Assembly (NCBI RefSeq): GCF_041053105.1
Contig: NZ_CP163444.1
Span: 1-64,000 of the forward strand
Length of the DNA: 64,000 nucleotides
Reading direction: 5' to 3'
DNA from: Streptomyces sp. R44
GTDB lineage: Bacteria; Actinomycetota; Actinomycetes; Streptomycetales; Streptomycetaceae
The position numbers and the translations under genes are program-made. Shown here one piece after another: positions 33 through 63,390 of the stretch (its first letter is position 1; the number at the start of each line of letters is the position of its first letter). The notes under the pieces were generated by a model that saw nothing but the letters and a program-made list of their open reading frames with translations, made no database searches and was not told where the DNA came from.

Positions 33-122
33 GGGATCATCCCCGGGCGGGGGTGGAGCAGGCCGCCCAGTCCGCCGGCTACTCCGCCCAGTCGGGTCCA
101 TCCACGCGCGAACGGGGAGCAG
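33..122 (+). CRISPR. Two degenerate type I-E-like CRISPR repeats
   Basis: Two 29-bp units (33-61 and 94-122) share the pattern GGGAyCATCCmCG...GGGGAGCAG seen at six other loci here. Their starts are exactly 61 bp apart, so the spacer is 32 bp (62-93), the usual type I-E geometry. Read as a crRNA the repeat runs on the minus strand (CTGCTCCCC...GATGATCCC). The array may continue to the left outside the window. To the right it stops where the transposase homology begins. No cas gene is visible. Confidence 0.7.
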
Positions 123-130
123 TCGGAGCC

Positions 131-890
131 GTACCCGCTGGCCGACGAGGTCGATGGCCGCGGCGACAGGCATGTCTCAGTCGACCATCTCGCGGATCTG
201 GCGGGCATTTGCGCTGATGCCGCACCGGTCACAGACGTTCAAGCTGTCGACGGATCCGCTGTTCATCGACAAGGGCCGCGATGTCGTCGGCCTCTATCTC
301 GACCCGCCGGAGAAGGCGCTTGTTCTCTGCGTGGACGAGAAGTCGCAGATCCAGGCCCTGGACCGGTCCCCGCCGGTGCTGCCGATGGTGCCCGGTGTTC
401 CCGAACGCCGCAGCCACGACTACGTCCGGGCCGGCACCACGACCCTGTTCGCCGCCCTCGAAGTCGCCATGGCAAGGTCATCGGCTCCCTCCACCGCCGT
501 CACCGGGCGACGGAGTTCAAGAAGTTCCTCGCGAAGCTGGACAAGGAAGTCCCGGCCGACCTGCAGGTTCACCTGATCCTGGACAACTACGCGACCCACA
601 AGACGCCCGACATCAAGAAGTGGCTGCCGGGCCACCCGCGGTTCCACCTGCACTTCACACCGACCAGCGTGTCCTGGCTGAACCTGGTCGAGCGGTGGTT
701 CGCCGAGCTGACCCAGAAGGGGCTCAAGCGCGGCGTCCACCGCTCGGTTCAGGCCCTCGAACGCGACATCCAGGCCTGGCTCGCCGACTGGAACGAGCAC
801 TCCAGACCATTCGTCTGGACGAAGACAGCCGACGGGACCCTCGACAAAGTCGCCGCCTACTGCCGACGAATCTCTGACTCAGATCACTAG
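131..890 (+). pseudogene. IS630-family transposase, truncated and frameshifted
   Basis: The reading frame holds the middle and C-terminal part of an IS630/Tc1-like DDE transposase: the HTH end ([13 protein letters not shown]), the first catalytic Asp region ([20 protein letters not shown]), then after a frame change [14 protein letters not shown], the second Asp ([10 protein letters not shown]) and the region of the last acidic residue (WLNLVERWFAELTQK). The frame changes near base 470, between CVDEK and GKVIGSL, by loss of one base compared with the family. The N-terminal HTH half is missing. The homology starts about 10 bp after a CRISPR repeat, so the element was cut or inserted at the array edge. 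The copy is inactive. Confidence 0.85.
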
Positions 891-906
891 CCGTAACGTC
901 CCTGAT

Positions 907-943
907 CGATTCGGTTCGCCTACGGATCCGGCGAATCGAATCG
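907..943. terminator. Bidirectional stem-loop between convergent genes
   Basis: Arms CGATTCGGTTCGCC (907-920) and GGCGAATCGAATCG (930-943) pair over 13 of 14 positions around a 9-base loop. It lies between the transposase remnant and the convergent oxygenase gene. It is followed by a G-rich run, not a T-tract, as is common in Streptomyces. Confidence 0.6.
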
Positions 944-978
944 GGTGGGGGAGGCAGCGCGCCGTCCCCGCAGCTCGG

Positions 979-1917
979 TCAGCCGCTGGTCGGCCCGCGA
1001 TCTGACGCGTCACGGCTGTCGAACGGCTTCGGAGGGATTGGAGACGTCACCCAGCGGATCGCTGCCGTGACCGCCCGGCCGCCAGGTCTCGCGAAAGGGA
1101 GGAGAAGCCTGATACGCCGGGGCACGGGCAGAACGGCCTGAGCCCACGGCGGCAGGAGATCCACAGCCGCTGTCGCCAGCAGAAGGTAGGGAAGCCGTGC
1201 CGGCCACGGCAGCGGCGGTGTCACCAGCAGGTACCGGGCCGTGGCCGACGACTCGTCCGTCGCCCGCAGCTCAGGGCGCCGGCCGCCGAGCTCCGTGACC
1301 AGGGCGGCTAGGGTCTCGGGTGGGTCGGGTATGCCCAGTCGAACGGCGACCGATGCCATGTCCTCGACGTACGCGTCCTGTTGCCCGGCGGTCAGGGCCT
1401 GCAGCCCGTAGCGCTGATGTGCCTCCAGGAAGCAGTAGGCCTCGGCCATGTGGACCCACGACAACAGCGAGGGATCAGAGGCGCGGTAGGCCACTCCGTC
1501 GGGCGTGCGCCCGGCCACCCGCGCATGCACCCCTCGTACCCGCTCCACTGCCCGCTCGGCATCCCGCGCCGTACCGAATGTCGTCTCCGCCAGGAAGGTA
1601 CTGGTCCGCTGCAGGCGGCCCCAGGGATCGCCGCGGAAGCCCGAGTGCGCCCAGACAGCTGCCATGGCGATCGGATGCAGTGACTGCAGCAGAAGTGCGG
1701 CGAGCCCTCCGATGTACATCGAGGCATCGGAGTGCACGGTTCGCACCGGCCTGTCCGGCGCGAACCAGCGAGGCCCAGGTGTGTGATGGATCCTGTCGCG
1801 CTTTTGTTCCGCTTCCGGACCGGCCACGCGCCGCATGAGCGCATCGCCTGCCTTCGCTCGCAGCCTTCCGACCAGGGGCACCGCGATCGCACTCCTCTCC
1901 GTGGGCTTCTCGGACAC
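979..1917 (-). CDS. MpaB/rubber-oxygenase-like (DUF2236) protein
   Basis: The 312-residue product belongs to the DUF2236 / MpaB oxygenase family: helical, probably heme-binding proteins related to latex-clearing and ER-bound oxygenases. Visible family features are the block SDASMYIGGLAALLLQSLHP near residue 60, with its conserved His and following WAHSGF, the central SLLSWVHMAEAYCFLEAHQRY with another His, and the C-terminal LLPFARP segment. I chose the GTG at 1917 because homology starts just after it. The open frame extends upstream to 2103, but that stretch is Arg/Pro-rich and unlike the family. The substrate cannot be inferred. The gene stands alone between a transposase remnant and a divergent secreted-protein gene. 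Confidence 0.75.
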   Translation of the reverse strand: MSEKPTERSAIAVPLVGRLRAKAGDALMRRVAGPEAEQKRDRIHHTPGPRWFAPDRPVRTVHSDASMYIGGLAALLLQSLHPIAMAAVWAHSGFRGDPWGRLQRTSTFLAETTFGTARDAERAVERVRGVHARVAGRTPDGVAYRASDPSLLSWVHMAEAYCFLEAHQRYGLQALTAGQQDAYVEDMASVAVRLGIPDPPETLAALVTELGGRRPELRATDESSATARYLLVTPPLPWPARLPYLLLATAAVDLLPPWAQAVLPVPRRIRLLLPFARPGGRAVTAAIRWVTSPIPPKPFDSRDASDRGPTSG

Positions 1918-2382
1918 TGCACCGTAAGGCTGCCTACCCCGAGAACCAGTCCGTACTGCGCAGCCGCTGTCGGCGCCGATCCGAGCGACCACATGCGGGC
2001 GACGCGAACCCGGCCGGTCGGGGCCGGGCGGAGTCGTGTCGTATGCGCGTACAGGCATCGAGCCACGAAAGACAGCGCCTACGCCGAGTTTCCGTCGATC
2101 CACTGTGCGTCACCGGTCACGCGCACCCTGCCATGACGCCGCATCCCTGCAGAATGCCGTCTGCGGGACCTCCGCGCCGACAGCGGATGGCGACCGTGTC
2201 AAACCGGGACAAAGCCGTCGCGTGCGGCCTTCATTCCAAGGATCTGGGAACCGTTCAACCTCTGCAGCGCGGCGAGCGCATCTCACGGTTTCCCACGATC
2301 ACCTCGCGAGTCGGACTGTCTCCTCATACGTCGGCTGTCGCCGCGCACTCCCCCGTCGGCTCGCTCGAAGGAGGTGTGTTCC

Positions 2383-2751
2383 ATGACCAGGACCATGCGA
2401 GTCCGACGGTTGGTGGCGGGTGGCGCCGCGTCCGGCCTGCTGGGAAGTGGCGCCGCGCTCGGGATGGCCGGCTCGGCGACCGCTGCTCCGGCCCCGACGT
2501 CCGTCGCCACGACTGTCGTGCACCATGACGACGGCGACCGGCACGGCCATCACGACCGGTGCGAGTGGAAGAAGGGGCACTGGGAGAAGAAGCGTGTCAA
2601 GCACGACACCTGGCACGCGGACCGGCACGACCACCACGGGAAGTGGCTCCCCGGCTACGGGGAGCACCACCACTCCTACAAGTGGGTCTACGTTTCCGGG
2701 CACTGGGACCACGTCTGGGTGAAGGGCCACTGGGACTGCCACCACTCGTGA
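2383..2751 (+). CDS. Secreted His/Trp-rich small protein
   Basis: The 122-residue product has a signal peptide (MTRTMRVRRLVAGGAASGLL, cleavage near AGSATAAPA). The mature part is very rich in His, Lys, Trp and Tyr, with repeats of the type KGHW, GHWDH and HDRHDHH. The composition suggests metal binding (Zn, Cu or Ni) or a cell-wall role, but no named family is recognised. The ATG at 2383 is preferred to the one at 2374 because AAGGAGG sits about 8 bases upstream of it. It is transcribed divergently from the oxygenase gene. Confidence 0.7.
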   Translation: MTRTMRVRRLVAGGAASGLLGSGAALGMAGSATAAPAPTSVATTVVHHDDGDRHGHHDRCEWKKGHWEKKRVKHDTWHADRHDHHGKWLPGYGEHHHSYKWVYVSGHWDHVWVKGHWDCHHS

Positions 2752-2895
2752 AACACCTGCCGGGCGCTGCAGACCGGCTTGGGCAGCCGGCTGGGCTGGA
2801 GACCGGCTCGGCCGGAGGCGCGCTCGATGGTCGGGTCGTCTGTGAAGTGAGACGCTGAAGAGCAGGGTCCGTGCCGACGAGTCTCGGGAGGACCG

Positions 2896-4374
2896 ATGGG
2901 ACGTGACGTCCCGGCGCTGGAGTTCACCCGTGACGACCGTCGCCGGTTCCGGAACAAGATGCACACGTGCCTCGATGTGTTCGCCCAGATGCTGAGGGAG
3001 TCACGGTTCGACTTCGAACGGCCGCAGGTCGGGTTGGAGATCGAACTGAACCTCGTGGACGAAACCGCGGAACCCGCCATGCGCGGCTCGGACGTCCTGG
3101 AAGCGCTGGCCGACCCGTCCTGGTCGACCGAGCTGGGACGGTTCAATCTGGAGATCAACATCGATCCGCGGCAGCTCACCGCGGGCGGCCCCGGGGCCTG
3201 GGAACAGGAGATACGGGACGCGCTCAACCACGCCGAGGAAAAGGCCGCGGCGATCGGGGCGCACCTGGTCATGATCGGAATCCTGCCGACGCTGGAACTG
3301 AAGGACGTGGGTCCGGCGTCGCTTTCCGAGAATCCGCGGTACCACCTGCTGAACGAGCAAATCTTCGCCGCACGCGGTGAGGACCTGTTGATCGCGGTGG
3401 ACGGGGTGGAGCGGCTGCGCACCTACGCGGACACGATCACGCCGGAGGCGGCGTGTACCAGCACTCAGTTCCACCTGCAGGTGTCGCCGGACGAGTTCGC
3501 GGACTACTGGAACGCCGCGCAGGCCGTCGCCGGGGTGCAGGTGGCACTGGCGGCGAACTCTCCGTTCCTCTTCTCCAAGGAGCTGTGGCACGAGACGCGT
3601 ATTCCGCTGTTCGAGCAGGCCACCGACACCCGGCCCGCGGAGATCAAGGTGCAGGGGGTCCGGCCCCGGGTGTGGTTCGGCGAGAGGTGGATCACCAGCG
3701 TCTTCGATCTCTTCGAAGAGAATGCGCGGTACTTCCCGGCGCTGCTGCCGCTCTGCGACGACGAGGACCCGCAGAAGACGCTCGATGACGGAGGGATCCC
3801 CGAGCTTGCCGAGCTGACGCTGCACAACGGGACGGTCTACCGGTGGAACCGTCCCGTCTATGCCGTCGTCGACGGCGTGCCGCACCTGCGGGTGGAGAAC
3901 CGTGTGCTGCCCGCGGGACCCACGGTGGCCGACGTGCTGTCGAACGGCGCCTTCTACTACGGGCTGGTGCGCGCCCTGGTCGACGAGGACCGACCGGTCT
4001 GGTCGCGGATGTCGTTCTCGGCGGCCGAGGACAATCTGGAGGCCGCAGCCCGGCATGGAATCGATGCGCAGCTGTACTGGCCCGGTATGGGTGAGGTCCC
4101 CGTGACCGAACTGGTACTGCGCCGCCTGCTGCCGCTCGCGGACCGCGGGCTGGAGCGGTGGGCCATGGACAGCGCCTGGCGGGAGCCGCTGCTGGGGATC
4201 ATCGAGCAGCGGTGCGTCAGCGGCCGGAACGGCGCGGTGTGGCAGTCGGAGATGTTCCACCATATCCAGGACATCGACCACGTGGACCGGCATCAGGCGC
4301 TGCGGCGGATGACGCAGCAGTATCTCGACTACATGCACATGAATGTTCCGGCGCACACCTGGCCGGTCGAATGA
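2896..4374 (+). CDS. Glutamate-cysteine ligase-like (GCS2-type) protein
   Basis: This 492-residue protein resembles the carboxylate-amine/glutamate-cysteine ligase superfamily (GCS2-like). The N-terminal block QVGLEIELNLVDE carries the acidic metal-binding residues, and STELGRFNLEINIDP and AACTSTQFHLQVSP are the second and third conserved blocks. Members make gamma-glutamyl amides by an ATP-dependent step. In mycothiol producers such proteins often do not make glutathione and their substrate is unknown. A GGGAGGACCG ribosome site precedes the ATG. No partner gene is adjacent. The family call is good and the reaction is only inferred. Confidence 0.8.
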   Translation: MGRDVPALEFTRDDRRRFRNKMHTCLDVFAQMLRESRFDFERPQVGLEIELNLVDETAEPAMRGSDVLEALADPSWSTELGRFNLEINIDPRQLTAGGPGAWEQEIRDALNHAEEKAAAIGAHLVMIGILPTLELKDVGPASLSENPRYHLLNEQIFAARGEDLLIAVDGVERLRTYADTITPEAACTSTQFHLQVSPDEFADYWNAAQAVAGVQVALAANSPFLFSKELWHETRIPLFEQATDTRPAEIKVQGVRPRVWFGERWITSVFDLFEENARYFPALLPLCDDEDPQKTLDDGGIPELAELTLHNGTVYRWNRPVYAVVDGVPHLRVENRVLPAGPTVADVLSNGAFYYGLVRALVDEDRPVWSRMSFSAAEDNLEAAARHGIDAQLYWPGMGEVPVTELVLRRLLPLADRGLERWAMDSAWREPLLGIIEQRCVSGRNGAVWQSEMFHHIQDIDHVDRHQALRRMTQQYLDYMHMNVPAHTWPVE

Positions 4375-4432
4375 GTCAGGGGCCCGGCCGGCCGCTGACC
4401 GGATACGGGCCCCTACCCGACGACGGCGCCGC

Positions 4433-4569
4433 CTACGCGCAGACGTGCTTGAAGGCACTCGCGCCCGGCCGGGGGCATGGAACTTCACCATGTGGCCGGC
4501 GTCGTGGGTGAAGACGGCCCCCGTGTCCGACTTCAAGGTCATCGTGCCGTGCTGGATCGGGTTGGACAT
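4433..4569 (-). pseudogene. Possible frameshifted small gene (about 45 residues)
   Basis: On the minus strand an ATG reads MSNPIQHGTMTLKSDTGAVF followed by THDAGHMVKFHAPG. A shift by one base then gives GASAFKHVCA and a stop. The peptide looks protein-like, but I do not recognise it and the frame is broken. It is tail-to-tail with the GCS2-like gene. This could be chance. Confidence 0.25.
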
Positions 4570-4654
4570 GATGTGCCCCCACTCTCCCAGCCATGGCCTT
4601 TCGACGTACCGGCCGGCTCGCCGGTTCCGCTCCCCACGGCAGTGAGCCGGACGA

Positions 4655-4676
4655 GGGACCGCCCTCATGCGGTCCC
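4655..4676. terminator. Perfect 8-bp stem-loop
   Basis: GGGACCGC, a 6-base loop CCTCAT, then GCGGTCCC. It lies between the GCS2-like gene and the convergent hydrolase remnant, where a terminator is expected. No T-tract. Confidence 0.5.
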
Positions 4677-4682
4677 GCGTAC

Positions 4683-5089
4683 TCACGGAAGGAACGTCAC
4701 TGCCGGGAAGGCCGGGGACGGCACGCCGAGCAGGTGGCCCCGACGGTGGCGCAGGTGCTCGTCGAAGAACGCGAGCGGGTACGCCTGCTGGATCTTCACC
4801 GCCTGCTCGGGGTCGAGAGTGCCGATCACGGCCTGGAGCTGCTGCGCGCCCCAGCCGAGAAGCATCGCCACCTGCGGGAACAGCGCCTCATCGTCGCCGT
4901 ACGAGACATGGGAGGCGCCCTGAGCCTCGATGCTCAGCCGCCCGGCCCCACAGGTGCGACCAGAATGCGGCAGCCTCGGGGGCCTTGGCTCGGATGAACT
5001 CGGCGGACATCATCATGAACGGCCGGACCTGGTCGCCAGCCAGTGCCGGCCTCATCTACATCGGGCCGTCGAGGACGAAGCGGAGGTCG
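4683..5089 (-). pseudogene. Alpha/beta hydrolase (PAF-acetylhydrolase-like), C-terminal remnant
   Basis: Joining minus-strand frames gives a protein-like path: MPFDLRFVLDGPM, an in-frame stop, MRPALAGDQVRPFMMMSAEF, AAFWSHLWG, then after a frame change GASHVSYGDDEALFPQVAML, IGTLDPEQAVKIQQAYPLAF and FDEHLRHR...PSPAFPAVTFLP. This looks like the C-terminal third of a Streptomyces secreted alpha/beta hydrolase related to platelet-activating-factor acetylhydrolase, including the SAEF and HVSYGDDEAL blocks near the catalytic Asp and His. There is at least one stop and one frameshift. The nucleophile half is absent, because the homology ends where the CRISPR repeats begin. Confidence 0.55.
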
Positions 5090-5178
5090 AAGGGCATCCC
5101 CAGGAGCGCGGGGAGCAGCTGTAGCCGCTGCGCGCGGCCAGGTCGTCGCGGGGACCATCCCTACAGGCGCGGGAGCAG
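5090..5178 (+). CRISPR. Two degenerate CRISPR repeats next to a leader-like flank
   Basis: Repeat units 5090-5118 (ending GCGCGGGGAGCAG) and 5151-5178 (GGGACCATCCC...GGGAGCAG, one base short) start exactly 61 bp apart. The right-hand unit is followed directly by the conserved leader-like flank. With the repeat read on the minus strand, 5151-5178 would be the leader-proximal repeat and the array would run leftwards into the hydrolase remnant. The left unit lies at the edge of hydrolase-like coding DNA, so it is less certain. Confidence 0.65.
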
Positions 5179-5248
5179 ACTCTGTGACCTGCAGTTCTAT
5201 CCTGCGAACAAACCATCTGAGCCACTTTCACCGGAACCGGCACACCAG
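5179..5248 (-). promoter_or_regulatory. CRISPR leader-like sequence, copy 1
   Basis: About 70 bp directly right of the repeat match the flank of the isolated repeat at 15.67 kb: both contain GTGACCTGCAGTTCTATCC, ACCATCTGAGCCACT, TCACCG and AACCG with the same spacing to within a base or two. Conservation of a repeat-adjacent flank at two loci is what a CRISPR leader would look like. It lies upstream of the array in crRNA orientation. Confidence 0.55.
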
Positions 5249-5266
5249 ACACCCCTCCCCCACAGC

Positions 5267-5517
5267 GAACCAACCCCACCGACGCAGGGAGCAGTGGCGC
5301 ACCATGCCCATAGAGGTCTTATGGCCGGGACCATCCCCCCTGTTGCGGGGAGCAGCGGATGCCACCGTTCTCGCAGGAGAAGCCCTTGGGGCCATCCCCG
5401 AGCAGGCAGGGAGCAGTCGAGCGGCGTCTGGTCGGCCTCGTAGACGTAGGGACCATCCGCGCGCGCGGGACGCAGTTCGTCAGCTCGTTCGGGGAGCCGT
5501 CGAGGGACGGGACGCAG
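5267..5517 (+). CRISPR. Decayed CRISPR array of four repeats plus a fragment
   Basis: Units at 5267-5294, 5327-5355, 5388-5416 and 5449-5475, with a stub at 5508-5517, share the CCATCC...GGGAGCAG pattern with substitutions and short deletions. Ends of the first three units are 61 bp apart (5294, 5355, 5416) and the start of the fourth is 61 bp after the third. The array stops one base before the terD stop codon, so its leader side has been replaced by the terD gene. Confidence 0.75.
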
Positions 5518-5518
5518 C

Positions 5519-6907: not shown

Positions 6908-7258
6908 AGGGCCATGGTGACAGCGGGCAGGGTGTGAAGAAAAGATCTTCTCGACCAAGGCGAGCGTTGCGGCGGGGAACGCGCCCCAGGACCACACCTC
7001 ACCCCCTCCAGGAGCGCCAGGCACCGCGGAGCCGTGACCAAGTGCCGCCCTGCCGGGCTTCGTCGCCGGATCGTCCCGGCAGCCATGCTCTCGCGGATGC
7101 CGCGGGCGGTCCGGCGCAGAAGGATGCGGCCGACGACATCGACTGGCCGGGTGTCGGCCGACTGGCCATCGTGCGAGCCCACCAGCACGTCCTGGAGGGC
7201 TTCCGAGCGCACCTCGGATCGGTCACCATGGAGGTCCGTCCGAGATTCGGGGGTGGGG
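6908..7258. other. Divergent intergenic region
   Basis: About 350 bp between the divergent terD-like gene and a membrane-protein gene. It must hold both promoters, but I see no clear -10/-35 pair, operator or RNA. Translations of the region give no protein-like segment. Confidence 0.4.
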
Positions 7259-7750: not shown

Positions 7751-7810
7751 ACCGCGGAGAACCGCACGCCGCAGGCGTGAAAGACGGGCATGGCTTGTTG
7801 TACTGGCGCA

Positions 7811-9681: not shown

Positions 9682-9684
9682 TCC

Positions 9685-9748: not shown

Positions 9749-9756
9749 GGGGCGGG

Positions 9757-10335: not shown

Positions 10336-10360
10336 CGAGGCCTTCGGTCGTAGCGGTTGA

Positions 10361-13612: not shown

Positions 13613-13613
13613 C

Positions 13614-14577: not shown

Positions 14578-14785
14578 AGGACCATCCCCGCGAGAGCAGG
14601 GAACAGAACCCCTTCTCCTCGCGCGTCGCCTCGGTCTTGCGAACATCCCCCGCGCGAGAAGCGGACGCCGGTCGAGCCGCTGAGCTCGCCGGCCTTGGGA
14701 CCATCCCCACGCAAGCAGGGAACACAGACCTGGCACGCGGTGGCGGCGGGGGCGGTGGGACCATCCCCGCGCAAGCAGCGAGCAG
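14578..14785 (+). CRISPR. Decayed CRISPR array, four repeats
   Basis: Units 14578-14606, 14639-14667, 14697-14725 and 14757-14785 follow the pattern GGACCATCCCCgCG...AGCAGGGAACAG. Start-to-start distances are 61, 58 and 60 bp, so the spacers are 30-32 bp. The outer units are the best preserved and the second is the most decayed. The orientation equals that of all other repeats in the window. It lies between the cyclophilin fragment and the exonuclease gene. Confidence 0.8.
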
Positions 14786-15665: not shown

Positions 15666-15694
15666 GGGACCATCCCCGCGCATGCGGGGAGCAG
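15666..15694 (+). CRISPR. Single well-preserved CRISPR repeat
   Basis: This unit (GGGACCATCCCCGCG followed by CATGCGGGGAGCAG) appears closest to the ancestral repeat: its inner CCCCGCGCATGCGGGG is a perfect palindrome, as in type I-E repeats that form the crRNA hairpin. It is followed on the right by the leader-like flank. No second repeat is recognisable 61 bp to the left. Confidence 0.75.
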
Positions 15695-15764
15695 ACTCAG
15701 TGACCTGCAGTTCTATCCCATGAGCAACACCATCTGAGCCACTCTCACCGAAACCGACAAACCA
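15695..15764 (-). promoter_or_regulatory. CRISPR leader-like sequence, copy 2
   Basis: Homologous to 5179-5248 over about 70 bp, beginning immediately after the repeat. It is AT-richer than the surrounding DNA. In crRNA orientation (minus strand) it precedes the repeat, where a leader with promoter and IHF-like or adaptation signals would be. Confidence 0.55.
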
Positions 15765-15931
15765 CCCATGGCAAGGCTCGGCACGCGGGCCGACAGCGGC
15801 AGCGCCGGAGCAGCAGGCCCTGCCAGACGGCAGCAGACAGGCCGGCGCACGGGCAGCGGCAAGCAGTGGGCCCTTCGCCGGGGCGGACCGACCGGCACGC
15901 AGCCCGGGTGCTGGCTTTGTTCGCGGGAAGT

Positions 15932-17887: not shown

Positions 17888-18060
17888 CCTGTTGTTGATG
17901 ATCCGGGGGGTGGTGTCACCGGGTCCGGAGGCATCGACGGACCGCTATCGAGGGGCTTGAGCACCGGCTTCACCCGAGCCGGAAGAGCTCTCCGTAACGT
18001 GGATGTGGCAGCTCGGTGCCGAGGCAAGGCCGGACGAAAGCGTGATGGAGGGGCCTGCAC
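17888..18060 (+). ncRNA. IS110 left-end non-coding region; candidate bridge RNA
   Basis: IS110-group elements encode a structured bridge RNA in the non-coding end upstream of the recombinase. These 170 bp are conserved with 37606-37774 in front of the second copy, although that copy's coding part has decayed. The conserved part includes a hairpin CCGGCT/AGCCGG with loop TCACCCG and the run GAAGAGCTCTCCG. Conservation begins at TGTTGTT.ATGATCCGGGG, which probably marks the element's left end. The RNA boundaries and guide loops cannot be set from sequence alone. Confidence 0.5.
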
Positions 18061-19263
18061 GTGATCGACATCGGCGACATCGACGTATTCCTCGGCCTGG
18101 ACGTCGGCAAGGGCGAACACCACGCCACCGCCGTCACCCCGGCCGGGAAGAAGGCGTTCGACAAGCGGCTGCCCAACACCGAACCCAGGCTCCGCGAGCT
18201 GTTCGCGAAACTCCAGGCCAAGCACGGAACGGGGCTGGTCGTGGTCGACCAGCCGGCCTCGATCGGGGCCCTGCCGCTGGCGGTCGCGAGGGACATGGGC
18301 TGCCCTGTCGCCTACTTGCCCGGCCTGACGATGCGGCGAATCGCCGACCTCTACGCAGGCGAGGCCAAGACCGACGCGAAGGACGCGTTCATCATCACCG
18401 ACGCCGCCCGAGCGATGCCCCACACCCTGCGGGCCATCGACGGCGAGGACGAGACAGTCGCCGAGCTGGAGATGATCGTCGGCTTCGACGACGACCTGGC
18501 CGGCGAGGCAACCCGGGTCGCCAACCGGCTGCACGGCCTGCTCACCCAGATCCATCCGTCGCTGGAACGGGTCCTGGGGCCGCGGTTGCAGCACCCAGCC
18601 GTCCTCGCCCTGCTGGAGCGGTTCGGCTCACCCGCCCAGATCCGCAAGGCGGGCAGGCGCCGACTGGTCACGTTGTTACGGCCGAAGGCGCCGCGGATGG
18701 CCGAGCGGCTGGTTGAAGAGATCTTCGCGGCCCTGGACGAGCAGACCGTCACCGTTCCCGGCACGGACGCGGCCTCACTGATCGTCCCGAGCCTGGCCAG
18801 CTCACTGACGGCCGTCCTGGACCAGCGCAAACTACTGGCCGGGCGAATCGAGGAACTGCTGGAGGCACACCCTCTTTCGAAGGTCCTGATCTCGATGCCG
18901 GGAGTCGGCGTCAGGACCGGAGCCAGGATCCTGATCGAGGTCGGCGACGGCAGCACCTTCCCGACCGCCGGCCACCTCGCCGCCTACGCCGGTCTTGCCC
19001 CGGCAACCCGCAGTTCGGGGTCGTCGATCCGCGGCGAACAGCCGTCCCGAAGGGGAAACAAGCAGCTCAAACGGGCCTTCTTCCTCTCCGCGTTCGCTGC
19101 CTTGGGCGACCCGGCGTCGCGGGCCTACTACGACAAGAAGATCGCCCAGGGAAAGCACCACACCCAGGCCCTGCTCTGCCTCGCCCGACGCCGGGCCGAC
19201 GTCCTCTTCGCAATGCTCCGCGACGGAACCTTCTACGAGTCCCGGCCTACCGCAGTGGCATGA
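18061..19263 (+). CDS. IS110-family transposase (recombinase)
   Basis: The 400-residue GTG-start protein has the DEDD RuvC-like domain of IS110: FLGLDVGKGEHHATAV (first Asp, about residues 10-25), LVVVDQPASIGALPLAVARD (Glu-equivalent region), IADLYAGEAKTDAKDAFIIT (closing Asp pair). It also has the C-terminal Transposase_20 domain with the HhH-like VLISMPGVGVRTGARILIEV and the catalytic-Ser region LAPATRSSGSS. Length and motifs are complete, so it is likely functional. IS110 enzymes cut and rejoin DNA without terminal repeats, guided by the upstream bridge RNA. A damaged relative lies at 37.8 kb. Confidence 0.92.
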   Translation: MIDIGDIDVFLGLDVGKGEHHATAVTPAGKKAFDKRLPNTEPRLRELFAKLQAKHGTGLVVVDQPASIGALPLAVARDMGCPVAYLPGLTMRRIADLYAGEAKTDAKDAFIITDAARAMPHTLRAIDGEDETVAELEMIVGFDDDLAGEATRVANRLHGLLTQIHPSLERVLGPRLQHPAVLALLERFGSPAQIRKAGRRRLVTLLRPKAPRMAERLVEEIFAALDEQTVTVPGTDAASLIVPSLASSLTAVLDQRKLLAGRIEELLEAHPLSKVLISMPGVGVRTGARILIEVGDGSTFPTAGHLAAYAGLAPATRSSGSSIRGEQPSRRGNKQLKRAFFLSAFAALGDPASRAYYDKKIAQGKHHTQALLCLARRRADVLFAMLRDGTFYESRPTAVA

Positions 19264-22044: not shown

Positions 22045-22134
22045 GGGACCATCCCCGCGCAGGCTGGGAGCAGGAGCTCGACCCCGAGTCGGGGCTCTAC
22101 GAGTGGCGACCAACCCCCCAGGCGCGGGGAACAG
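22045..22134 (+). CRISPR. Two CRISPR repeats with exact 61-bp period
   Basis: Units 22045-22073 (GGGACCATCCCCGCG...CTGGGAGCAG) and 22106-22134 (GCGACCAACCCCCC...GCGGGGAACAG) start 61 bp apart with a 32-bp spacer. The second unit ends six bases before the stop of the small membrane-protein gene. Confidence 0.75.
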
Positions 22135-22140: not shown

Positions 22141-22404
22141 TCAGGTGCGGGCCTGATCAGGCTTCCGTCCCGTGAATCCCTGGGTCGCTTTCGCCAAAAG
22201 ACCGGTTGACCACGAGGCCAGAGTCTTGATCAGTGACAGAGTGTTCTTCTGCTTGTGATCGGCCATCCATGGCCACGCCATCCAGGCGGGCAGCAGGCCC
22301 ACGGTCACGATCAGTAGAGGCACCATGCCCACAAGGGCGCACAGCACCAGACACAGGGGGATGATCGTGCGGGAAGAGATCCACGAGAACACGTCTTGAA
22401 GCAT
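22141..22404 (-). CDS. Small membrane protein, about 87 residues
   Basis: MLQDVFSWISSRTIIPLCLV... The product carries one long or two short membrane helices (IIPLCLVLCALVGMVPLLIV and TVGLLPAWMAWPWM) followed by a basic tail (KQKNTLSLIKTLASWSTGLL AK). The start could be nine codons upstream (22431). The family is unknown. The gene lies between CRISPR repeats on its right-hand (5') side (weak units at 22410-22500) and left-hand side (22134), as if it sits inside a former array. Small hydrophobic proteins of this type can be toxins or membrane effectors, but no direct evidence is visible. Confidence 0.5.
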   Translation of the reverse strand: MLQDVFSWISSRTIIPLCLVLCALVGMVPLLIVTVGLLPAWMAWPWMADHKQKNTLSLIKTLASWSTGLLAKATQGFTGRKPDQART

Positions 22405-23628: not shown

Positions 23629-23657
23629 GGGACCATCCCCACACAGGCGGGGAGCAG
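23629..23657 (+). CRISPR. Isolated CRISPR repeat
   Basis: GGGACCATCCCCACACAGGC followed by GGGGAGCAG, 29 bp, close to the best copy at 15666. No convincing neighbour unit lies at plus or minus 61 bp. It marks the left edge of the arsenic island. Confidence 0.6.
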
Positions 23658-37605: not shown

Positions 37606-38705
37606 CCTGTTGTTCATGATCCGGGGGGGGCACCGGGCCCGGCGGCATCGACGGACCGCAGATGAGGAGCTTGAGCACCGGCTTCACCCGAGCCGGAAGA
37701 GCTCTCCGAAACGTGGATGTGGCAGCTCGGTGCCCAGGCAAGGCCGGACGAAAGCGTGATGGAGGGGCCTGCATGTGATCGACACCGGCGACATCTGCGT
37801 CTTCCTCGGCCTGGACGTCGGCAAAGGCGAACACCACGCCACCGGCGTCGCCCAAGCCGGGAAGAAGGCCTTCGACAGGTGCCTGCCCAACACCGAACCC
37901 AAACTCCGCGAGCTGTTCGCCAAGTTGCAGGCCATGCACGGAACCGTGCTGGTCGTGGTCGGCCAGCCGGCGTCGATCGGCGCCCTGCCGCCGGCGGTCG
38001 GCAGGGACATGGGCTGCCCGGTCGCCTATCTGCCGGGGCTGACGGTGCGGCGGATCGCCGACCTCTATCCAGGGGAGGCGAAGACGCACACGAAGGACGC
38101 GTTCGTCATTGCGGACGCGGCCCGTGCGATGCCGCACACCCTGCGGGCTATCGACGGCGAGGACGAGACGATCGCCGAGCTGGAGATGATCGTCGGGGTT
38201 CGACGACGACCTCGCAGGGGAGGCCACCCGCGTCGCCAACCGGATGCACGGCCTGCTGATCCAGATCCATCCCTCGCTGGAACGGGTGCTGCGGCCGCGG
38301 CTGCAGCACCCGGCCGTCCTGACCTTGCTGGAACGGTTCGGGTCACCGGCACAGATACACAAGGCGGGCCGTCGGCGGCTGGTCACGCTGCTGCGGCCGA
38401 AGGAGCCGAGGATGGCCGAGCGGCCTGGTCGGTGAGATCTTCGCCAGGCTGGACGAGCAGACCGTGACGGTCCCGGGGACCGAGGCGGCCGCGCTGATCG
38501 TCCCGAGCCTGGCCGCATCACTGACCCGCAGTTCCGGGTCATCGATCCGCGGCGAGCAGCCCTCCAGAAGGGAGACAAGCAGCTCAAACGAGCCTTCTTC
38601 CTCTCCGTGTTCGCCGCCCTGGCCGACCCGGCATCCCGTACCTACTACGACAAGAAGATCCCCCGGGGCAAGCACCACACCCAGGTCGACCGGCAGATCG
38701 GGTAA
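37606..38705 (+). mobile_element. Decayed IS110 copy with intact left end
   Basis: The non-coding left end (37606-37774) matches 17888-18060 closely, including the hairpin CCGGCT/AGCCGG. The transposase starts at GTG 37775 (DTGDICVFLGLDVGKGEHHA) but shifts frame near 38196, again near 38428, and has lost about 70 codons between SLAASLT and RSSGSSIRGEQ. It ends early after KKIPRGKHHTQ. The left flank (37585-37600, GCTGATCGTCCCGAGCCT) repeats an internal piece of the same transposase (38496-38512), so this copy probably sits in or beside another IS110 scrap. Inactive. Confidence 0.85.
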
Positions 38706-55094: not shown

Positions 55095-55120
55095 GGGAAA
55101 GGGGTGTCTCCTGCCTCGTC

Positions 55121-55534: not shown

Positions 55535-55557
55535 GACACCACCCTATCCCATGACCC

Positions 55558-55584
55558 AATGAAACAACGTTCTGTTGTTTCATT
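55558..55584. promoter_or_regulatory. 27-bp AT-rich palindrome upstream of the telomere operon
   Basis: AATGAAACAAC, 5 bases, GTTGTTTCATT: perfect 11-bp arms, far below local GC. Its place just upstream of the first operon gene makes it a likely operator of the tap-tpg unit. Confidence 0.8.
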
Positions 55585-55764
55585 GGTGGCCGTGTTGCGC
55601 CACCCGCCGACACCTCACCAGCACATCGCGGCCGGGGCACAGCCCGGGCCGTGGTCCACGCCGGCACGACGGCGTCCGGGACTCCGTGGCACCGCAGGGC
55701 GGGTAGTTCCGGAGAGGGTGTACCGCGCGGCTGTGCCGGCAGGCGTTCGGTACACCCTCGGCTG

Positions 55765-58700: not shown

Positions 58701-58785
58701 CATTGCCGGCCAGGGTGTCGAAGTCGACCGTTTCGGTGCGGGCGAAGGGGCCGAAGGCCTGGACGGTCAGGTGGTGCAGGTGCAT
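55765..58785 (-). CDS. sbcC: SbcC/Rad50-like exonuclease subunit
   Basis: 1006 residues. Walker A RGDTGAGKTSVLDAV (about 34-48) is followed by a long coiled coil with the zinc-hook CTVCGSPEHP near its middle. The C-terminal signature is LSGGETFTASLALALGLADV and Walker B LGTLFIDEGFGTLD. It pairs with SbcD to process DNA ends and hairpins. Its ATG overlaps the sbcD stop by one base (TGATG). It lies 180 bp beyond the telomere operon on the same strand. Confidence 0.95.
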   Translation of the reverse strand: MHLHHLTVQAFGPFARTETVDFDTLAGNGLFLLRGDTGAGKTSVLDAVCFALYGTVPGIRPTHRLRSDHAPTATRTAVTLDFSAAGRRLRITRTPKQERPSTRAKSGFVTDEATVQLHRHTTTTDGHDQWDPVSANVQDAAREIEAALGLNKEQFCQVVLLPQGDFAKFLRSDAKDRAGLLRRLFGTGRFQELQTWLTTRSKDTRKKLDEALTEIRQLAERTDQETRTLHAQDGETPTRPDADDPAAILTWTQQLLTLSQKASAAAKADAVRSDDEHDEAKRNHDKATDLAERQTRHRDAHARRTELDEHAAGHTRLREELDRGRSAQTVRPLLDALDRTAAALQEARAGELQARALLALEHQQEDLHHLGAHLERRHAERGRIEGLIPDERLHTHLGIQLDGLAAEEQQAHADLDEAGEWLAAWPAAEDRHAGAVGDMNRAADSIAHLERTVSDATARYGAALQRDSLATRLAAASEEKTLRAAQALKAKQEWLDLRESRLEGMAGELAARLSPGMPCTVCGSPEHPAPARPRDDQPTREDENKAHTLHEQAEQARTTADREHAELAEEHAMALGSAGTTPAAELATTLEQARTAYQEACDTAAGLPAARDELARLRTEHDTRTRLHQEARDLLTECQTRSRTLAQQQADLARTLDDARAGHLSLRERLADLTSTAERLDRAIAAAQATQDAEARHHEALTAADKAAHDAGFTSRDDAAGALRTPTLLQQWAEDLEQWGRADAIVTSILTDPGLVEASLQPAADPTAAARALQQAEARLKDTAGALRRAEERVTALTELAAGIETRLAGIEPLQQSHRITDRLASIASANSTANTLSMELEAYVLAARLEEIAAAANTRLQNMTSERYLLVHSDEKEAGRRGRLKAGLGLRVLDTWTGTERETSTLSGGETFTASLALALGLADVVTQEAGGRRLGTLFIDEGFGTLDEQNLQDVMDVLDQLRAGNRTVGIVSHVPELSRRIPSQLNVRKHRDGSTLRPLTGTDV

Positions 58786-59936
58786 CAGTGGGCCTCTCGT
58801 GCCGCGGCCTGGATACGGACGCTTTCCAGTCCTTCGCGCAGCAGATCCTGCTCTGCGGCGGTTGCGGGAACGTTGGTCACGTGCTCGACGAAGCCGAGGG
58901 CGATGTCGTGGTCGCTGCGGCCGTTGACACGGGTGCCGTAGGACTCGTCGCTCGTGTGGTGGCCGGCGGTGAAGCTGAGCTTGAGAGTGTGGGGGAAGCG
59001 TTCCTTGAGGCGTTCCATGGCCATGTGCGGGCGGTCGGGATCGGTGAGGGTGATGTGAAGCCAGGAGCTTTCGTGCTCGGTGTGCCGGGGATCGGTGAGC
59101 AGGGCGTCCACGGTTCCGGTGAGCCGGGCAAGGCGCCGGGGCACGGGGCACCGGACCTGCTGTGCGCTCAGGCGGGCCTCACTGTCCAGGTCGATGAGCC
59201 ACATCGCCTTGGGGTGATCTGCTTCGGAGAAGGAGTAGGCCAGAGGCGATCCGCTGTATCGGACACGATCGGTGATCTTCTGGCAGCGGTGCAGGTGTCC
59301 CAGCGCGACGTAGTCGACGCCGTCGAACACCGAGGCGCTGACGGAAGGGACGCCGCCGGCGGTGATGTCGCGTTCGCTCTCACTGGGTTCAGCGCCGGTG
59401 ACGAAGGCATGGGCAAGGACGACGGACCGTGTGTCGCGACGGGTGGCGAGGTCGGCCCGTACCTGGTCCATCGCCGCGTCGAGGACGGCCTGATGGGTGG
59501 GCTTGTCCGCGTCGAAATGGGCCTGGACCAGGCCGGGTTCGAGGTAGGGAAGTCCGTAGAACGCCACCGGCCCGTGCTCGTCGTGCAGCACCGCCGGGCG
59601 GGCGCAGTCATCCACCGCGGTGCGGAGGTGGATTCCAGCGCGTTCGATCAGGCGGGCGTTGACCCCCAGCCGGCGCGGCGAGTCATGGTTGCCGCTGATC
59701 ATCACCAGCGGCACCCGCATGCCGGCGAGTTCTTCCAGGACCTGGTCGAACAGGCCGATCGCATCCAGCGGCGGGATGGCCCGGTCGAACACATCACCCG
59801 CCACCGCCACGACATCGACGCGATACTCCCGGACGGTGTCCAGGAGGAACCGGAGGAAATGGTGCTGCTCGTCGATGAGCGGCACACGGTGAAGCTGACG
59901 GCCCAGATGCCAGTCGGAGGTATGCAGAATCCTCAT
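58785..59936 (-). CDS. sbcD: SbcD/Mre11-like nuclease subunit
   Basis: 383 residues. Metallophosphoesterase motifs are RILHTSDWHLGR (Asp8, His10), VVAVAGDVFDRA, MISGNHDSPRRLG and LAHAFVTG with LGHLHRCQ. The C-terminal capping part ends EGLESVRIQAAAREAH. It cuts DNA ends as a complex with SbcC. The start at 59936 gives the family N-terminus MRILHTSDWH. A palindrome lies 55 bp upstream. Confidence 0.95.
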   Translation of the reverse strand: MRILHTSDWHLGRQLHRVPLIDEQHHFLRFLLDTVREYRVDVVAVAGDVFDRAIPPLDAIGLFDQVLEELAGMRVPLVMISGNHDSPRRLGVNARLIERAGIHLRTAVDDCARPAVLHDEHGPVAFYGLPYLEPGLVQAHFDADKPTHQAVLDAAMDQVRADLATRRDTRSVVLAHAFVTGAEPSESERDITAGGVPSVSASVFDGVDYVALGHLHRCQKITDRVRYSGSPLAYSFSEADHPKAMWLIDLDSEARLSAQQVRCPVPRRLARLTGTVDALLTDPRHTEHESSWLHITLTDPDRPHMAMERLKERFPHTLKLSFTAGHHTSDESYGTRVNGRSDHDIALGFVEHVTNVPATAAEQDLLREGLESVRIQAAAREAH

Positions 59937-60361
59937 GCGCACACACCGTAACCACAAAGGCCAACACTGTGGGCGGATTTCATGACGAATGATCCTTTCG
60001 AAGGATCTCCCTCCCGACAGCGACTCACCGACGCCGAGGTGTCACCGGGCAGGCAAGAGAAGGGAAGGGCACAAGAAGAAGGGAGGTTCGCAGGGCCCGG
60101 CACGGCCACAACCAGGCGCCCACGCCCGGGTCCCCTCGATACCGGCATGGATCTCTACGCCCGCGCGAGGGCGGTGCCCGGCGGCCGGCCCGCCACCGGC
60201 GGCCGGTCCGGAAAGTCCCGCCGTCTACCGCAGGCCAGGGGCTACGGGGTCCCGATGCCGTGCACGCGCACGGCGGGCGTGGGCGGCCCGCCGTCACAGG
60301 GGCCGGAAAATCCCGCCCGCCTGCCCGCGGCGCATGGCCCGCGGGCGTCCTGGCGTGGCGA
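59937..60361. other. Intergenic region upstream of sbcD
   Basis: About 425 bp. It holds the palindrome at 59991-60007 and otherwise Arg/Pro/Gly-coding noise. No gene supported. Confidence 0.4.
59991..60007. promoter_or_regulatory. 17-bp palindrome upstream of sbcD
   Basis: GATCCTTTCGAAGGATC is a perfect inverted repeat with 7-bp arms around TCG (symmetric in TTCGAA). A candidate operator of the sbcDC operon. Confidence 0.55.
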
Positions 60362-60758
60362 TCAGGAGTGCCAGACGTCGCAAGCCAGCCGGGACTTTCC
60401 GGGCTCGGTCCAGGACAGCGGGAGAGTGTCGCCGACCGGGCGGGAACCTGTGCGGGGGCCGGGCACGGTGAGCGCCGGGTGGTCGAGCAGCAGGGTGAGC
60501 GTCCGCGTCTGAGGCGGGTAGCCGCCGGTCAGGCCGGTGAGGAAGTCGGCAGCCTTGATCCGGCGGGTGGGCTTGGTCGTGGCGTCTTCCAGCACGCCAC
60601 TGGCAGCGAGCCTTCCCCGCCACCTCCCCGATGCGCTCCACATCCCGCCAGGCAGCCGCGGCGCCGGCCTCGACCCGCCCGGCGGCCACCGTGACGACCC
60701 GGCTCAGCAGGTAGCTGACCGGGGGGACATCGCCGTCGGGGAACGTGTCCGTGGCCAC
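60362..60758 (-). pseudogene. Hypothetical gene with a frameshift
   Basis: Frame 1 gives MATDTFPDGDVPPVSYLLSR VVTVAAGRVEAGAAAAWRDV ERIGEVAGKA. Frame 2 continues GVLEDATTKPTRRIKAADFL, TGLTGGYPPQTRTLTLLLDH PALTVPG and ends KSRLACDVWHS. The two halves read as one about 125-residue protein broken near 60600. I do not recognise the family. Confidence 0.45.
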
Positions 60759-60995
60759 GGCCCGGCGAGCCGCCTGATTCCTGGCCGCACGGAAAGCGGG
60801 CGGGACTGCGAGCAGGGACCAAAGCAGTCCGACCTCCTAAAGATCACCCATGCGCCAGCTCGAAGTCGCCGAGCATCACAGCCGGAGCGTCGGCAACCAG
60901 GCCGCCGACGGCCGGCAGCGCCGGGTCGGGCCGGGAGCGCCCCTGTGGGAGAACACCGCGGGCCGGGGGGGTGACGCGGGTCCCGTCGATCCCTA

Positions 60996-61011
60996 TACTC
61001 GTAGACGAGTA
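60996..61011. promoter_or_regulatory. Candidate PadR operator
   Basis: TACTCGT AG ACGAGTA, perfect 7-bp arms. It overlaps a TATACT -10-like hexamer (60994-60999) 25 bp before the PadR start. A position over the promoter implies autorepression. Confidence 0.65.
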
Positions 61012-61035
61012 CTCGGATACGACTATGGAGCTGTA

Positions 61036-61683
61036 GTGAAGAGGCGCAAGGTTTCCAATCTGCTCGGGCTGGCGGTGCTCTCCTCACTGATGGAGCGGCC
61101 GATGCACCCCTACGAGGTGGCCTCGGTGCTGCGGGCCCGTGGGAAGGAGGCCGACATGGAGATCAAGATCGGCTCTCTCTACACCGTGGTGGGGAACCTC
61201 GCCCGACACGGCTTCATCGAGGTCGCGGAGTCCGGCCGGGAGGGCGCCCTGCCCGAGCGGACGGTCTACCGGATCACCGACGCGGGCCGCGAGGAGCTGC
61301 TGGACTGGGTGCGGGAGCTGATCTCCACCCCGCAGGCGGAGCCACGCCGGTTCAAGGCGGGCCTGTCGGTGTTCGCGGTCGTGGGCCCCGACCAGGCCGC
61401 AGCCCTGCTGCGGGAGCGCCTCGCGGCTCTGGAGCAGGGCACCGAGGCGCTGCGCGCAGCCGCGGCCGAGCACGCCGCTTTCGTGCCGCGGCTGTTCCTG
61501 GTCGAGGACGAGTACGAGATCGCCATGCGCGAGGCGGAGCAGGCGTGGGTCCGCGCGCTGCTCGAGGAGTTGACGTCCGGATCGTTCCCGGGCCTGGCCG
61601 AGTGGCGGGCCTGGGAGACGACCGGTCAGGCCCCGGCCGCGACACCGGGGCCGAAGGACCGGGGGGCGCCCCCGGCGAACTGA
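61036..61683 (+). CDS. PadR-family transcriptional regulator
   Basis: 215 residues, GTG start with GGAG upstream. The N-terminal winged helix reads SNLLGLAVLSSLMERPMHPY EVASVLRARG, MEIKIGSLYTVVGNLARHGF IEVAES and ERTVYRITDAGREELLDWVR. The C-terminal dimerisation helices (about 110-190) are present, so it is a PadR-s1/AcrR-like long form. It probably senses a phenolic or drug-like ligand and controls the downstream monooxygenase. Confidence 0.9.
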   Translation: MKRRKVSNLLGLAVLSSLMERPMHPYEVASVLRARGKEADMEIKIGSLYTVVGNLARHGFIEVAESGREGALPERTVYRITDAGREELLDWVRELISTPQAEPRRFKAGLSVFAVVGPDQAAALLRERLAALEQGTEALRAAAAEHAAFVPRLFLVEDEYEIAMREAEQAWVRALLEELTSGSFPGLAEWRAWETTGQAPAATPGPKDRGAPPAN

Positions 61684-61865
61684 TCAAAGGGGCCCGGCGC
61701 GGTGTTCCCGCACCGACACCGGGCCCTCGAATCCCGAACCGGTCACCTGGACAGGAGAATCCGGCCACGAGATGGCAACGGCAACGATAGCCGGACTCTC
61801 CACCCGGGCGGTACACCACGCCCCGGTGCGCAGGCGCGCCCCGGAGGCATCTTCCGTGGGGAGAG

Positions 61866-63086
61866 ATGACAGACATGAACAAGGCGAGCAAGGCACGAAC
61901 CGCGCTGGTCATCGGCGGCGGGATCGCCGGGCCTGTGACGGCGATGGCGCTGCGCAAGGCCGGCATCGAGGCGACCGTGTACGAGGCCTACCCCAGCCCC
62001 ACCGAGGGCGTCGGCGGCACCCTGACACTGGCCCCCAACGGCCAGGGAGCACTCGAACTCCTCGGTCTGAAGCAGGAGGTGACGCAGATCGGACTGCCGA
62101 TCGTGGGCACGGCACTGTCCTTCGGCAGCAAGAACATCACCATCCCGCAGCTCGACGGCGTCGCCCCGCCCCTGCAGGTCGACCGCAACGACCTGCACCG
62201 GGTGCTGCACCAGGCCGCCACCGCACAGGGCATCCGCATCGAACACCGCAAGCGCCTGATCGGCGCCGAACAGGACCGGACCGGGGTCACCGCACACTTC
62301 GCGGACGGCAGCACCGCCCGCGCGGACCTACTCATCGGCGCCGACGGCGTCCACTCCACCGTGCGCACGCTGATCGACCCCGACGCACCCGGCCCGCAGT
62401 ACACCGGCGTCCTCGGCTTCGAGGCGTCGGTGGACCACCCCGTCCCCGGGCCGGCCGGCATCACACACTTCGCGTTCGGCCGGCGGGCCTACTACCTCTA
62501 CTGGCGCGAGGCCGACGGCCGCACCCGGATCGGCTTCAACCTCCCGCACGACACCCCCATTCGCCTGAGCCAGGCCCGTACCATCCCCGCGGCACAGTGG
62601 TTGCAGGTCCTGCGCGACACCTACGGCCAGGACAACCCCGGCGGCGCTCTGGTCCGCGCGATCGACCCGGAGCAGCTCCAGGTCAACGGCTCGGTGTGGA
62701 TCATGCCGAGCGTGCCGCGCTGGCACAGCGGCCGGATGGTGCTGGCCGGCGACGCCGTACACGCCCCGTCCAACAGCTCCGGCCAGGGAGCCTCACTGGC
62801 AGCCGAGAGCGCCATCGAGCTGGCCCGGGCCCTTCGCGACCTGCCCCTCGAACAGGCACTGCCCGCCTACGAGCAGGCCCGCCGCCCCCGCGTCGAACAC
62901 ATCGCCGCGCAAGCCAGGAAAGTCAACCGGGTCAAAGCCCCCGGACCCGTCGCAGCCGCCGTCATGCCAGTCATGATGCGGGTACTCGTGAAGGTCGCCA
63001 TGAACCCCGAACGCAACTTCGGCCCCACCTGGCGCCACCACATCGACTGGGATCAGCCAGTCGCCCCGACCGCCGCCAGCCGCTGA
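61866..63086 (+). CDS. FAD-dependent (group A) monooxygenase
   Basis: 406 residues. GGGGAGAG precedes the ATG. ALVIGGGIAGPVTAMALRKA is the dinucleotide motif (about 13-32). ADLLIGADGVHSTVR is the DG motif. MVLAGDAVHAPSNSSGQGAS LAAESAIELARAL is the GD motif with second FAD contacts. It is similar to TetX/PHBH-like hydroxylases. The PadR gene 180 bp upstream suggests inducible drug or aromatic hydroxylation. The substrate is unknown. Confidence 0.92.
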   Translation: MTDMNKASKARTALVIGGGIAGPVTAMALRKAGIEATVYEAYPSPTEGVGGTLTLAPNGQGALELLGLKQEVTQIGLPIVGTALSFGSKNITIPQLDGVAPPLQVDRNDLHRVLHQAATAQGIRIEHRKRLIGAEQDRTGVTAHFADGSTARADLLIGADGVHSTVRTLIDPDAPGPQYTGVLGFEASVDHPVPGPAGITHFAFGRRAYYLYWREADGRTRIGFNLPHDTPIRLSQARTIPAAQWLQVLRDTYGQDNPGGALVRAIDPEQLQVNGSVWIMPSVPRWHSGRMVLAGDAVHAPSNSSGQGASLAAESAIELARALRDLPLEQALPAYEQARRPRVEHIAAQARKVNRVKAPGPVAAAVMPVMMRVLVKVAMNPERNFGPTWRHHIDWDQPVAPTAASR

Positions 63087-63242
63087 ACCCGCCGGGCGTG
63101 CGGGAGGCCCAACCACCCCACCCGCACGCCCACCACCCACCACCCACGACCCACAGCCCAGACAAGCCGAACCAGGACCGCAACCCGCAACCCGCAACAC
63201 CATGGCGCCCACCACCGGGACCCGGCAGCACAGACAGACCAC

Positions 63243-63390
63243 CCCCAAGGCGAAAGAAGCGCGGGGAACAGTCCCTGCCGTTGCACATCACACCGCCGCG
63301 GCCGGAACCATCCCCACGCGGACGGCAAGCAGACCCTGGTGGTGGTCGTCGTACAGCTGACGGGGCCATCCCTGCGCAAGCGGGAAACTC
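63243..63390 (+). CRISPR. Three degenerate CRISPR repeats
   Basis: Units 63243-63271 (right half GCGCGGGGAACAG only), 63304-63332 (GGAACCATCCCCACG...GGCAAGCAG) and 63362-63390 (GGGGCCATCCCTGCG...CGGGAAACTC). The first two start 61 bp apart, the last two 58 bp. The array ends 10 bp before the stop of a small gene. Confidence 0.6.

Follow-up and report, generated by a model that had tools for sequence, protein, structure and literature searches.

What are the short palindromic repeats that recur, always in the same orientation, towards one end of the linear chromosome of Streptomyces sp. R44? The window analysed here, 64,000 bp in length, comprises bases 1-64000 at the left end of an 8,892,027-bp single-contig chromosome, and an earlier note made from its letters alone had counted about nineteen related units in it, reading them either as broken-up clustered regularly interspaced short palindromic repeat (CRISPR) arrays of type I-E or as solitary repeats serving as insertion points. 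We propose, at a probability of roughly 0.85, that they are relics of type I-E arrays, belonging to a multi-array locus at both ends of the linear chromosome that has lost its CRISPR-associated (cas) genes and is now disintegrating. Because dnaA lies at 4.35 Mb, about mid-chromosome, the contig ends are taken to be the chromosome ends; no telomere sequence was recognised at either of them (telomere proteins were not searched for), and the arrays may therefore reach beyond the contig. At the right end the outer 60 kb were examined, numbered inward from the telomere with R1 as base 8,892,027.

Repeats, leaders and spacers at the two chromosome ends

A weight matrix for which 69 units of the right end, and none of the window, served as training set recovers 15 units in the window (starts at 33, 94, 5090, 5266, 5327, 5388, 14578, 14697, 14757, 15666, 22045, 22106, 23629, 63304, and 63362), all on the plus strand and scoring 20.7 to 44.1 bits, compared with a best score of 14.5 bits in 40 first-order Markov simulations and a best minus-strand window score of -2.8; positions 22319 (8.1 bits) and 36349 (6.7 bits) score at chance level and were left uncounted. 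Four further units with indels or a half repeat (5151, 5449, 14639, and the weak 63243) bring the total to the nineteen first counted, and the single orientation claimed for them holds for all fifteen strong ones. Starts exactly 61 bp apart, described earlier as frequent, account for 4 of 14 steps among strong units (33 to 94, 5266 to 5327, 5327 to 5388, and 22045 to 22106) and for three more once indel-bearing units are included, the remaining close steps being 60, 58, and 119 bp. Genome-wide, unit 15666 has 35 copies within 3 mismatches, confined to the chromosome ends: four plus-strand copies in the leftmost 24 kb, 31 minus-strand copies in the rightmost 7 kb, and none elsewhere, with zero copies of a reversed-pattern control. 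This repeat is the one typical of type I-E arrays in Streptomyces, found within 3 mismatches in 86 of 295 genus genomes, many with regular arrays, and the same 29-bp palindrome occurs in ordinary Streptomyces arrays beside type I-E cas genes. A random presence in unrelated Streptomyces, which the earlier note had named as fatal to a CRISPR origin, was not seen: 209 of the 295 genomes lack any copy at up to 3 mismatches, and the reversed control is zero in all 295.

The right end carries about five times as many units as the window, with 81 at 8 bits or more in the last 7.3 kb, one of them on the opposite strand, and four further units of at least 15 bits at R20529-20840. Their spacing is that of CRISPR arrays (of 80 steps, 49 are 61 bp, six 62, and four 60), and their polarity, as on the left, points toward the telomere. 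At each end, two units run into a block of about 70 nt. A query of one repeat plus 56 nt of this block matches 184 of 392 genus genomes, in listed alignments that mostly stop 6-25 nt into the block, and of 29 loci fetched other than those of R44 itself, mostly at up to 3 kb each, nine also encode Cas1-Cas2 or Cas3; since the block or its array adjoins these genes there, we identify it as the leader. A 135-nt leader query at E<=1e-12 matches 11 of the 392 genomes, own genome included. The leader side faces the chromosome centre at both ends, and the best-kept repeats stand beside leaders, as identical intact copies at R3056, R3117, and 15666; the exception is the left leader at 5179, which adjoins a damaged repeat. 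In one right-end array, mismatches increase with distance from the leader (rho 0.46, p 0.001, 47 units).

The two ends also share sequence, in that window positions 5152-5390 and R6936-7176 are 87% identical and have a leader, repeats, and two spacers in common. This common piece of about 240 bp, which stops at a spacer-repeat junction, resembles what would be expected of part of a decayed terminal inverted repeat. It would also fit a reading in which the arrays served as homology tracks for exchange of chromosome ends with linear plasmids, where only exchanges of matching polarity survive, hence a polarity that is fixed at both ends; arrays of the same polarity do occur near the ends of the linear plasmids NZ_CP106797 and NZ_CP108189. 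Polarity on plasmids is mixed, however, as among the matches listed H97, H98, and H114 point the opposite way at up to about 16 kb from the record end, and strongly diverged repeats recombine poorly. We consider end exchange an improbable explanation of the arrays, and return to relics of a type I-E locus as the preferred one.

What lies between the right-end repeats bears directly on that origin. Spacer length, like repeat and leader, conforms to ordinary type I-E arrays of Streptomyces. Among 59 spacers of 31-33 nt in the outer 7.3 kb, five (four sequences) match Streptomyces phages: the R6022 spacer matches the single-stranded DNA-binding gene of phage Picard at 34 of 34 positions including one flanking base per side, the R1768 spacer the portal gene of phage Sentinel at 97%, the spacer present at both R485 and R2963 the tail assembly chaperone gene of phiScoe56 at 97%, and the R424 spacer an intergenic palindrome of phage Gilgamesh at 89% over 47 bases, some of which belong to the repeat. 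A match to a Microbacterium phage at R6579-6629 (80%, E 0.05) spans repeat and spacer and was left out of the count.

These data also bear on the idea of a solitary palindromic family, like repetitive extragenic palindromic (REP) elements, that spread by recombination and offers insertion sites to accessory modules. Such a family should appear as scattered singles in both orientations without a period, and the single units at 15666 and 23629, together with three independent fusions of an insertion-sequence-like end to repeats, give it some footing; against it stand the one strand of 15 of 15 window units, the 61-bp steps, the leaders, the spacers common to both ends, and those matching phages. 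As an account of origin it is very unlikely, given the fixed strand, the CRISPR period, and two clusters with leaders. The suggestion that the repeats act as insertion points survives in a weaker form, which rests on the three fusion events and on a 650-bp module whose homology starts inside a repeat. The usual repeat, the 61-bp period, the leaders, the spacers held in common with the right end, and the phage matches there bear out the other suggestion, of several type I-E arrays broken up.

An array locus in which no core cas gene was found

No match to the Cas1, Cas7e, Cse1, or Cas6e families was found anywhere in the genome, extending the absence of cas genes first noted in the window to the whole chromosome for these four families. 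The Cas7e, Cse1, and Cas6e searches matched only 2 of 14 control genomes, and the same Cas7e search matches 114 of 295 genus genomes. When 14 Cas proteins were compared with the translated outer 104 kb on the left and 60 kb on the right, no convincing cas remnant emerged (best E 0.028); Cas3, Cas5, Cas2, and Cse2 were covered in the outer stretches only. Counting repeat copies within 3 mismatches in the 295 genomes, Cas7e is present in 30 of the 31 with at least ten repeats, R44 being the exception, in 16 of 55 with one to nine, and in 68 of 209 with none, so that no other genome in this sample combines many close repeats with a lack of Cas7e. With the core cas genes searched for missing, the cell's own genes would be able neither to process nor to extend the arrays. 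Right-end repeats differ from their own consensus by a mean of 4.45.

The arrays could nevertheless still function if cas genes were supplied in trans by a plasmid that is missing from the assembly or was recently lost. Type I-E systems are common on Streptomyces plasmids, the spacers match phages at 97-100%, and the leader-end repeats R3056, R3117, and 15666 are identical, all of which speak for such a supply. On the other side, the assembly is a single contig from which the four cas families are absent, the mean of 4.45 differences compares with 0.15-0.77 in four well-kept loci, and stem pairing on the CRISPR RNA (crRNA) strand is only 0.87 in the window, and we judge current function in trans to be unlikely.

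How, then, would such a locus have arisen and decayed? We propose that several arrays of one polarity, with other genes in between, would have formed a locus that had once been active, of which the right end would retain most and the left a more broken part. By analogy, each leader would have driven a transcript toward the telomere, Cas6e would have cleaved it at every repeat hairpin, Cascade with Cas3 would have attacked matching phage DNA, and new spacers would have been inserted beside the leader; these working steps are established for type I-E systems, and we infer them for R44. After the presumed loss of cas genes, insertion sequences, duplication, and point mutation would now be dismantling the arrays. 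It is plausible that the locus arrived on the end of a linear plasmid, and exchange with such an end may have contributed.

Several observations weigh against this account. (i) A second right-end array has no trend with rank (rho 0.00, 32 units). (ii) In the two clusters searched, left-end spacers gave no convincing phage match. (iii) The bases preceding the protospacers, in crRNA sense, are AAC, AGC, AAC, and GAC, of which two of four fit AAN; the motifs reported for S. avermitilis are AAG and AAN (PMC4762764, PMC12231136). (iv) The genome-wide search covers four cas families, and as no cas remnant was found, cas loss itself is not seen. (v) No relative was found to have the same site; of 41 relatives, the 37 with matches to the 63-kb stretch match it through the neighbouring gene, with no synteny seen.

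Comparable loci place R44 within a wider range. Several arrays of one polarity lie beside Cascade genes in NZ_CP106797, NZ_CP027025, and the genomes G338 and G385. Both NZ_CP027025 and NZ_CP106797 encode cas3 to cas6, with no cas1 or cas2 in the 32 and 17.5 kb examined; contig 23 of G338 has 80 units in its first 20 kb and cas3 to cas5 within the stretch examined; and contig 61 of G385 holds 164 one-polarity type I-E units, several leaders, and Cascade genes, with no cas1, cas2, or cas3 match in its 49 kb. As in R44, repeats are variable in NZ_CP027025, G338, and G385 (means of 2.0-3.1 differences from their own consensus), and the mean is 0.77 in NZ_CP106797. Array fragments without cas matches also occur: contig 39 of S. 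gardneri carries 13 one-strand units in six clusters over two 20-kb stretches of its 100.7 kb, and the linear S. zaomyceticus plasmid NZ_CP108189 has one-strand mini-clusters 5-8 kb from its end. Within about 120 kb of a chromosome end, type I-E material is found with cas genes in G347 and G249, as five units without them in G317, and as one repeat with a cas3 fragment in G012; many chromosomal arrays among the matches listed sit megabases from the ends. Beside the arrays of three Streptomyces plasmids, at up to about 0.3 kb, lies a fic family toxin-antitoxin gene pair (L037 5797-6431, L084 7461-8077, and L086 6127-6761), perhaps an addiction module tied to arrays; none was recognised near the window units.

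Published systems resemble R44 in single features. The linear plasmid pSHK1 of Streptomyces sp. HK1 has type I-E arrays scattered over a linear replicon, with five of its seven arrays scattered, but possesses eight cas genes (Guo et al. 2011 via PMC12231136), whereas R44 lacks the four core families and carries arrays at both chromosome ends. Plasmid SCP1, a linear replicon too, carries a cas-less array, with four spacers as against about 100 units in R44, the sole such case among the 31 repeat-rich genomes sampled; the review describing it gives figures of 46 of 70 genomes with arrays and 26 of 70 with cas genes (PMC12231136). Streptomyces type I-E variants without cas1 and cas2 have been described (Faure et al. 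2019, Shmakov et al. 2018 via PMC12231136), for which tnsB/tnsC and an NTPase are named as neighbours (PMC12231136); NZ_CP027025, NZ_CP106797, G338, and G385 resemble them in having Cascade and no cas1 or cas2 match in the stretches examined, unlike R44, where none of the four core families was found. In S. avermitilis, too, a type I-E array is interrupted by transposases, four genes splitting one array, but that species has an active set of eight cas genes (Qiu et al. 2016, PMC4762764). We found no paper on CRISPR at Streptomyces chromosome ends, as judged by title and abstract and with subscription journals mostly outside coverage. R44 probably represents a CRISPR locus caught decaying at both ends of a linear chromosome, with enough units, about 100, to follow the death of arrays without cas genes.

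Strand-biased change in the repeats

Changes in the repeats are unevenly distributed between strands. Scored against the repeat in its GGGACC orientation, with p values calculated after collapsing neighbouring copies to events, G>A exceeds C>T at the right end (80 units; 119 versus 14, p = 1e-10), in the window (15 units; 25 versus 2, p = 9e-4), in G385 (164 units; 131 versus 19, p = 3e-14), and in NZ_CP027025 (65 units; 53 versus 13, p = 3e-4). By events the bias is not significant in G338 (47, 28), NZ_CP106797 (16, 6), NZ_CP120991 (10, 5), or G345 (17, 4). In 23 other arrays (318 units) there are 59 G>A versus 20 C>T (p 6e-4), with 44 versus 11 in the leader-far half, and leader-adjacent repeats (n = 15, seven loci, three well-kept loci excluded) carry zero G>A versus a mean of 0.91 in 209 others. 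The bias is not a rule for all arrays: those adjacent to cas loci (20 arrays from ten genomes) have 30 G>A versus 22 C>T, which is not significant. Spacer composition is unshifted, with A and T at 0.145 and 0.156 in right-end spacers and 0.152 and 0.162 in other spacers pooled, when at the repeat rate spacer A would by arithmetic be about 0.19. Given this and the limited number of biased loci, the bias is a property of the repeats, and only at some loci whose arrays are old. G>A counts in the right-end arrays show no increase with rank, an argument against a simple clock.

Two explanations were rejected as complete ones. Selection for the hairpin through G-U wobble would fit the stem pairing at the right end, 0.938 on the crRNA-sense strand versus 0.804 on the opposite strand, and accounts for part of the bias; it does not account for the bias that persists outside the stem (0.072 versus 0.017 per base), and C>T is not rarer inside the stem than elsewhere. 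Deamination coupled to acquisition, in which the leader-distal repeat copy is single-stranded after integration and changes C to T, correctly predicts both the strand and the intact leader-adjacent repeats, but is contradicted as a general cause by the G345 array, where the newest 22 of 32 units lack G>A and the changes lie in the oldest ten.

As a tentative and rather doubtful alternative, old repeats may be eroded by a mutation process targeted to the repeat and specific to one strand (C to T, crRNA-sense) that leaves spacers alone. The counts bearing on faster mutation of repeats than of spacers are equivocal: in the left-right duplicate, repeats differ at 16 of 86 positions versus 14 of 151 in leader plus spacers (p 0.044), and other segmental duplicates give mixed repeat-versus-spacer divergence; single common spacers have 0-1 differences beside repeats that differ at 1-11 of 29, and such spacers may be re-acquired. 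The simplest mechanism would be exposure of cytosines in a single-stranded repeat hairpin, the exposed strand at these ends being predicted to be both the non-template strand and the lagging-strand template, and the boldest would be a dedicated deaminase or base modification. Were it true, arrays would lose their repeats yet keep readable spacers; if confirmed, strand-biased decay would give a means of measuring how old an array is, and would hint that some process acts on repeats, not spacers. The same title-and-abstract search, under the same coverage, returned no paper on strand-biased or age-dependent repeat decay.

Clusters in the window, insertions and duplications

The outermost cluster, at the very left end of the contig, is a pair of repeats with a 61-bp step at 33..122 (+; 22.6 and 32.7 bits), and sequence from about 11 bp past repeat 94 matches plasmid regions with IS630-family transposases, the matches starting at 133-138. 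The next pair, also 61 bp apart, lies at 5090..5178 (+), comprising 5090-5118 (20.7 bits) and 5151-5178, a 28-nt unit with a 1-nt deletion that is homologous to right-end unit R6935 and borders the leader copy at 5179..5250 (+), whose approximate end derives from alignment with three other leaders and whose leader side faces the chromosome centre. Four repeats in 61-bp steps follow at 5266..5477 (+), the first three (5266, 5327, 5388) scoring 23.1, 26.3, and 32.0 bits and the last (5449) being degenerate. The cluster at 14578..14785 (+) has three strong repeats (14578, 14697, and 14757; 32.9, 36.1, and 35.9 bits) and degenerate 14639, in register 61 bp after 14578. The intact leader-adjacent repeat at 15666..15694 (+; 44.1 bits), identical to right-end leader-end repeats R3056 and R3117, is followed by a leader copy at 15695..15764 (+) with 90% identity to right-end leader R6964 and 83% to that of S. 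gardneri (G305). Further inward are two repeats 61 bp apart at 22045..22134 (+; 37.8 and 22.7 bits, the second degenerate), a lone well-kept repeat at 23629..23657 (+; 40.8 bits), and, at 63243..63390 (+), two degenerate repeats 58 bp apart (63304 and 63362; 28.6 and 21.1 bits) with a possible half repeat at 63243, judged by eye to be a weak 3' half only. One extra unit of 27 bits lies beyond the window at 81612. Genes between the units encode transposases, a TerD protein, and an MpaB-type oxygenase, among others, and near matches between window and plasmids, among the matches listed, are mostly insertion sequences.

The insertion-sequence-like end TGGCT[CT]TGTTC[AG]CG occurs at R4190, R7179, R20522, R20865, and window position 15912, and in four of these five occurrences it is fused to a CRISPR repeat; with R4190 and R20865 counted once, as copies of each other, there are three events, as if the element carrying this end prefers the palindromic repeat. 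Downstream of R7179 is an ISL3-type transposase remnant. The 650-bp module contains array fragments as well as a SnoaL-like gene and exists in two copies, R3995-4637 and R20669-21316, 16 kb apart at 93% identity; in the second copy homology starts in the last bases of a CRISPR repeat. Duplication also affects transposase regions: an IS5-like one is present in two adjacent right-end copies, R13899-15025 and R15020-16146, that are 99.9% identical, and an IS110-family one in two window copies, 17888-19168 and 37606-38685, that are 87-88% identical.

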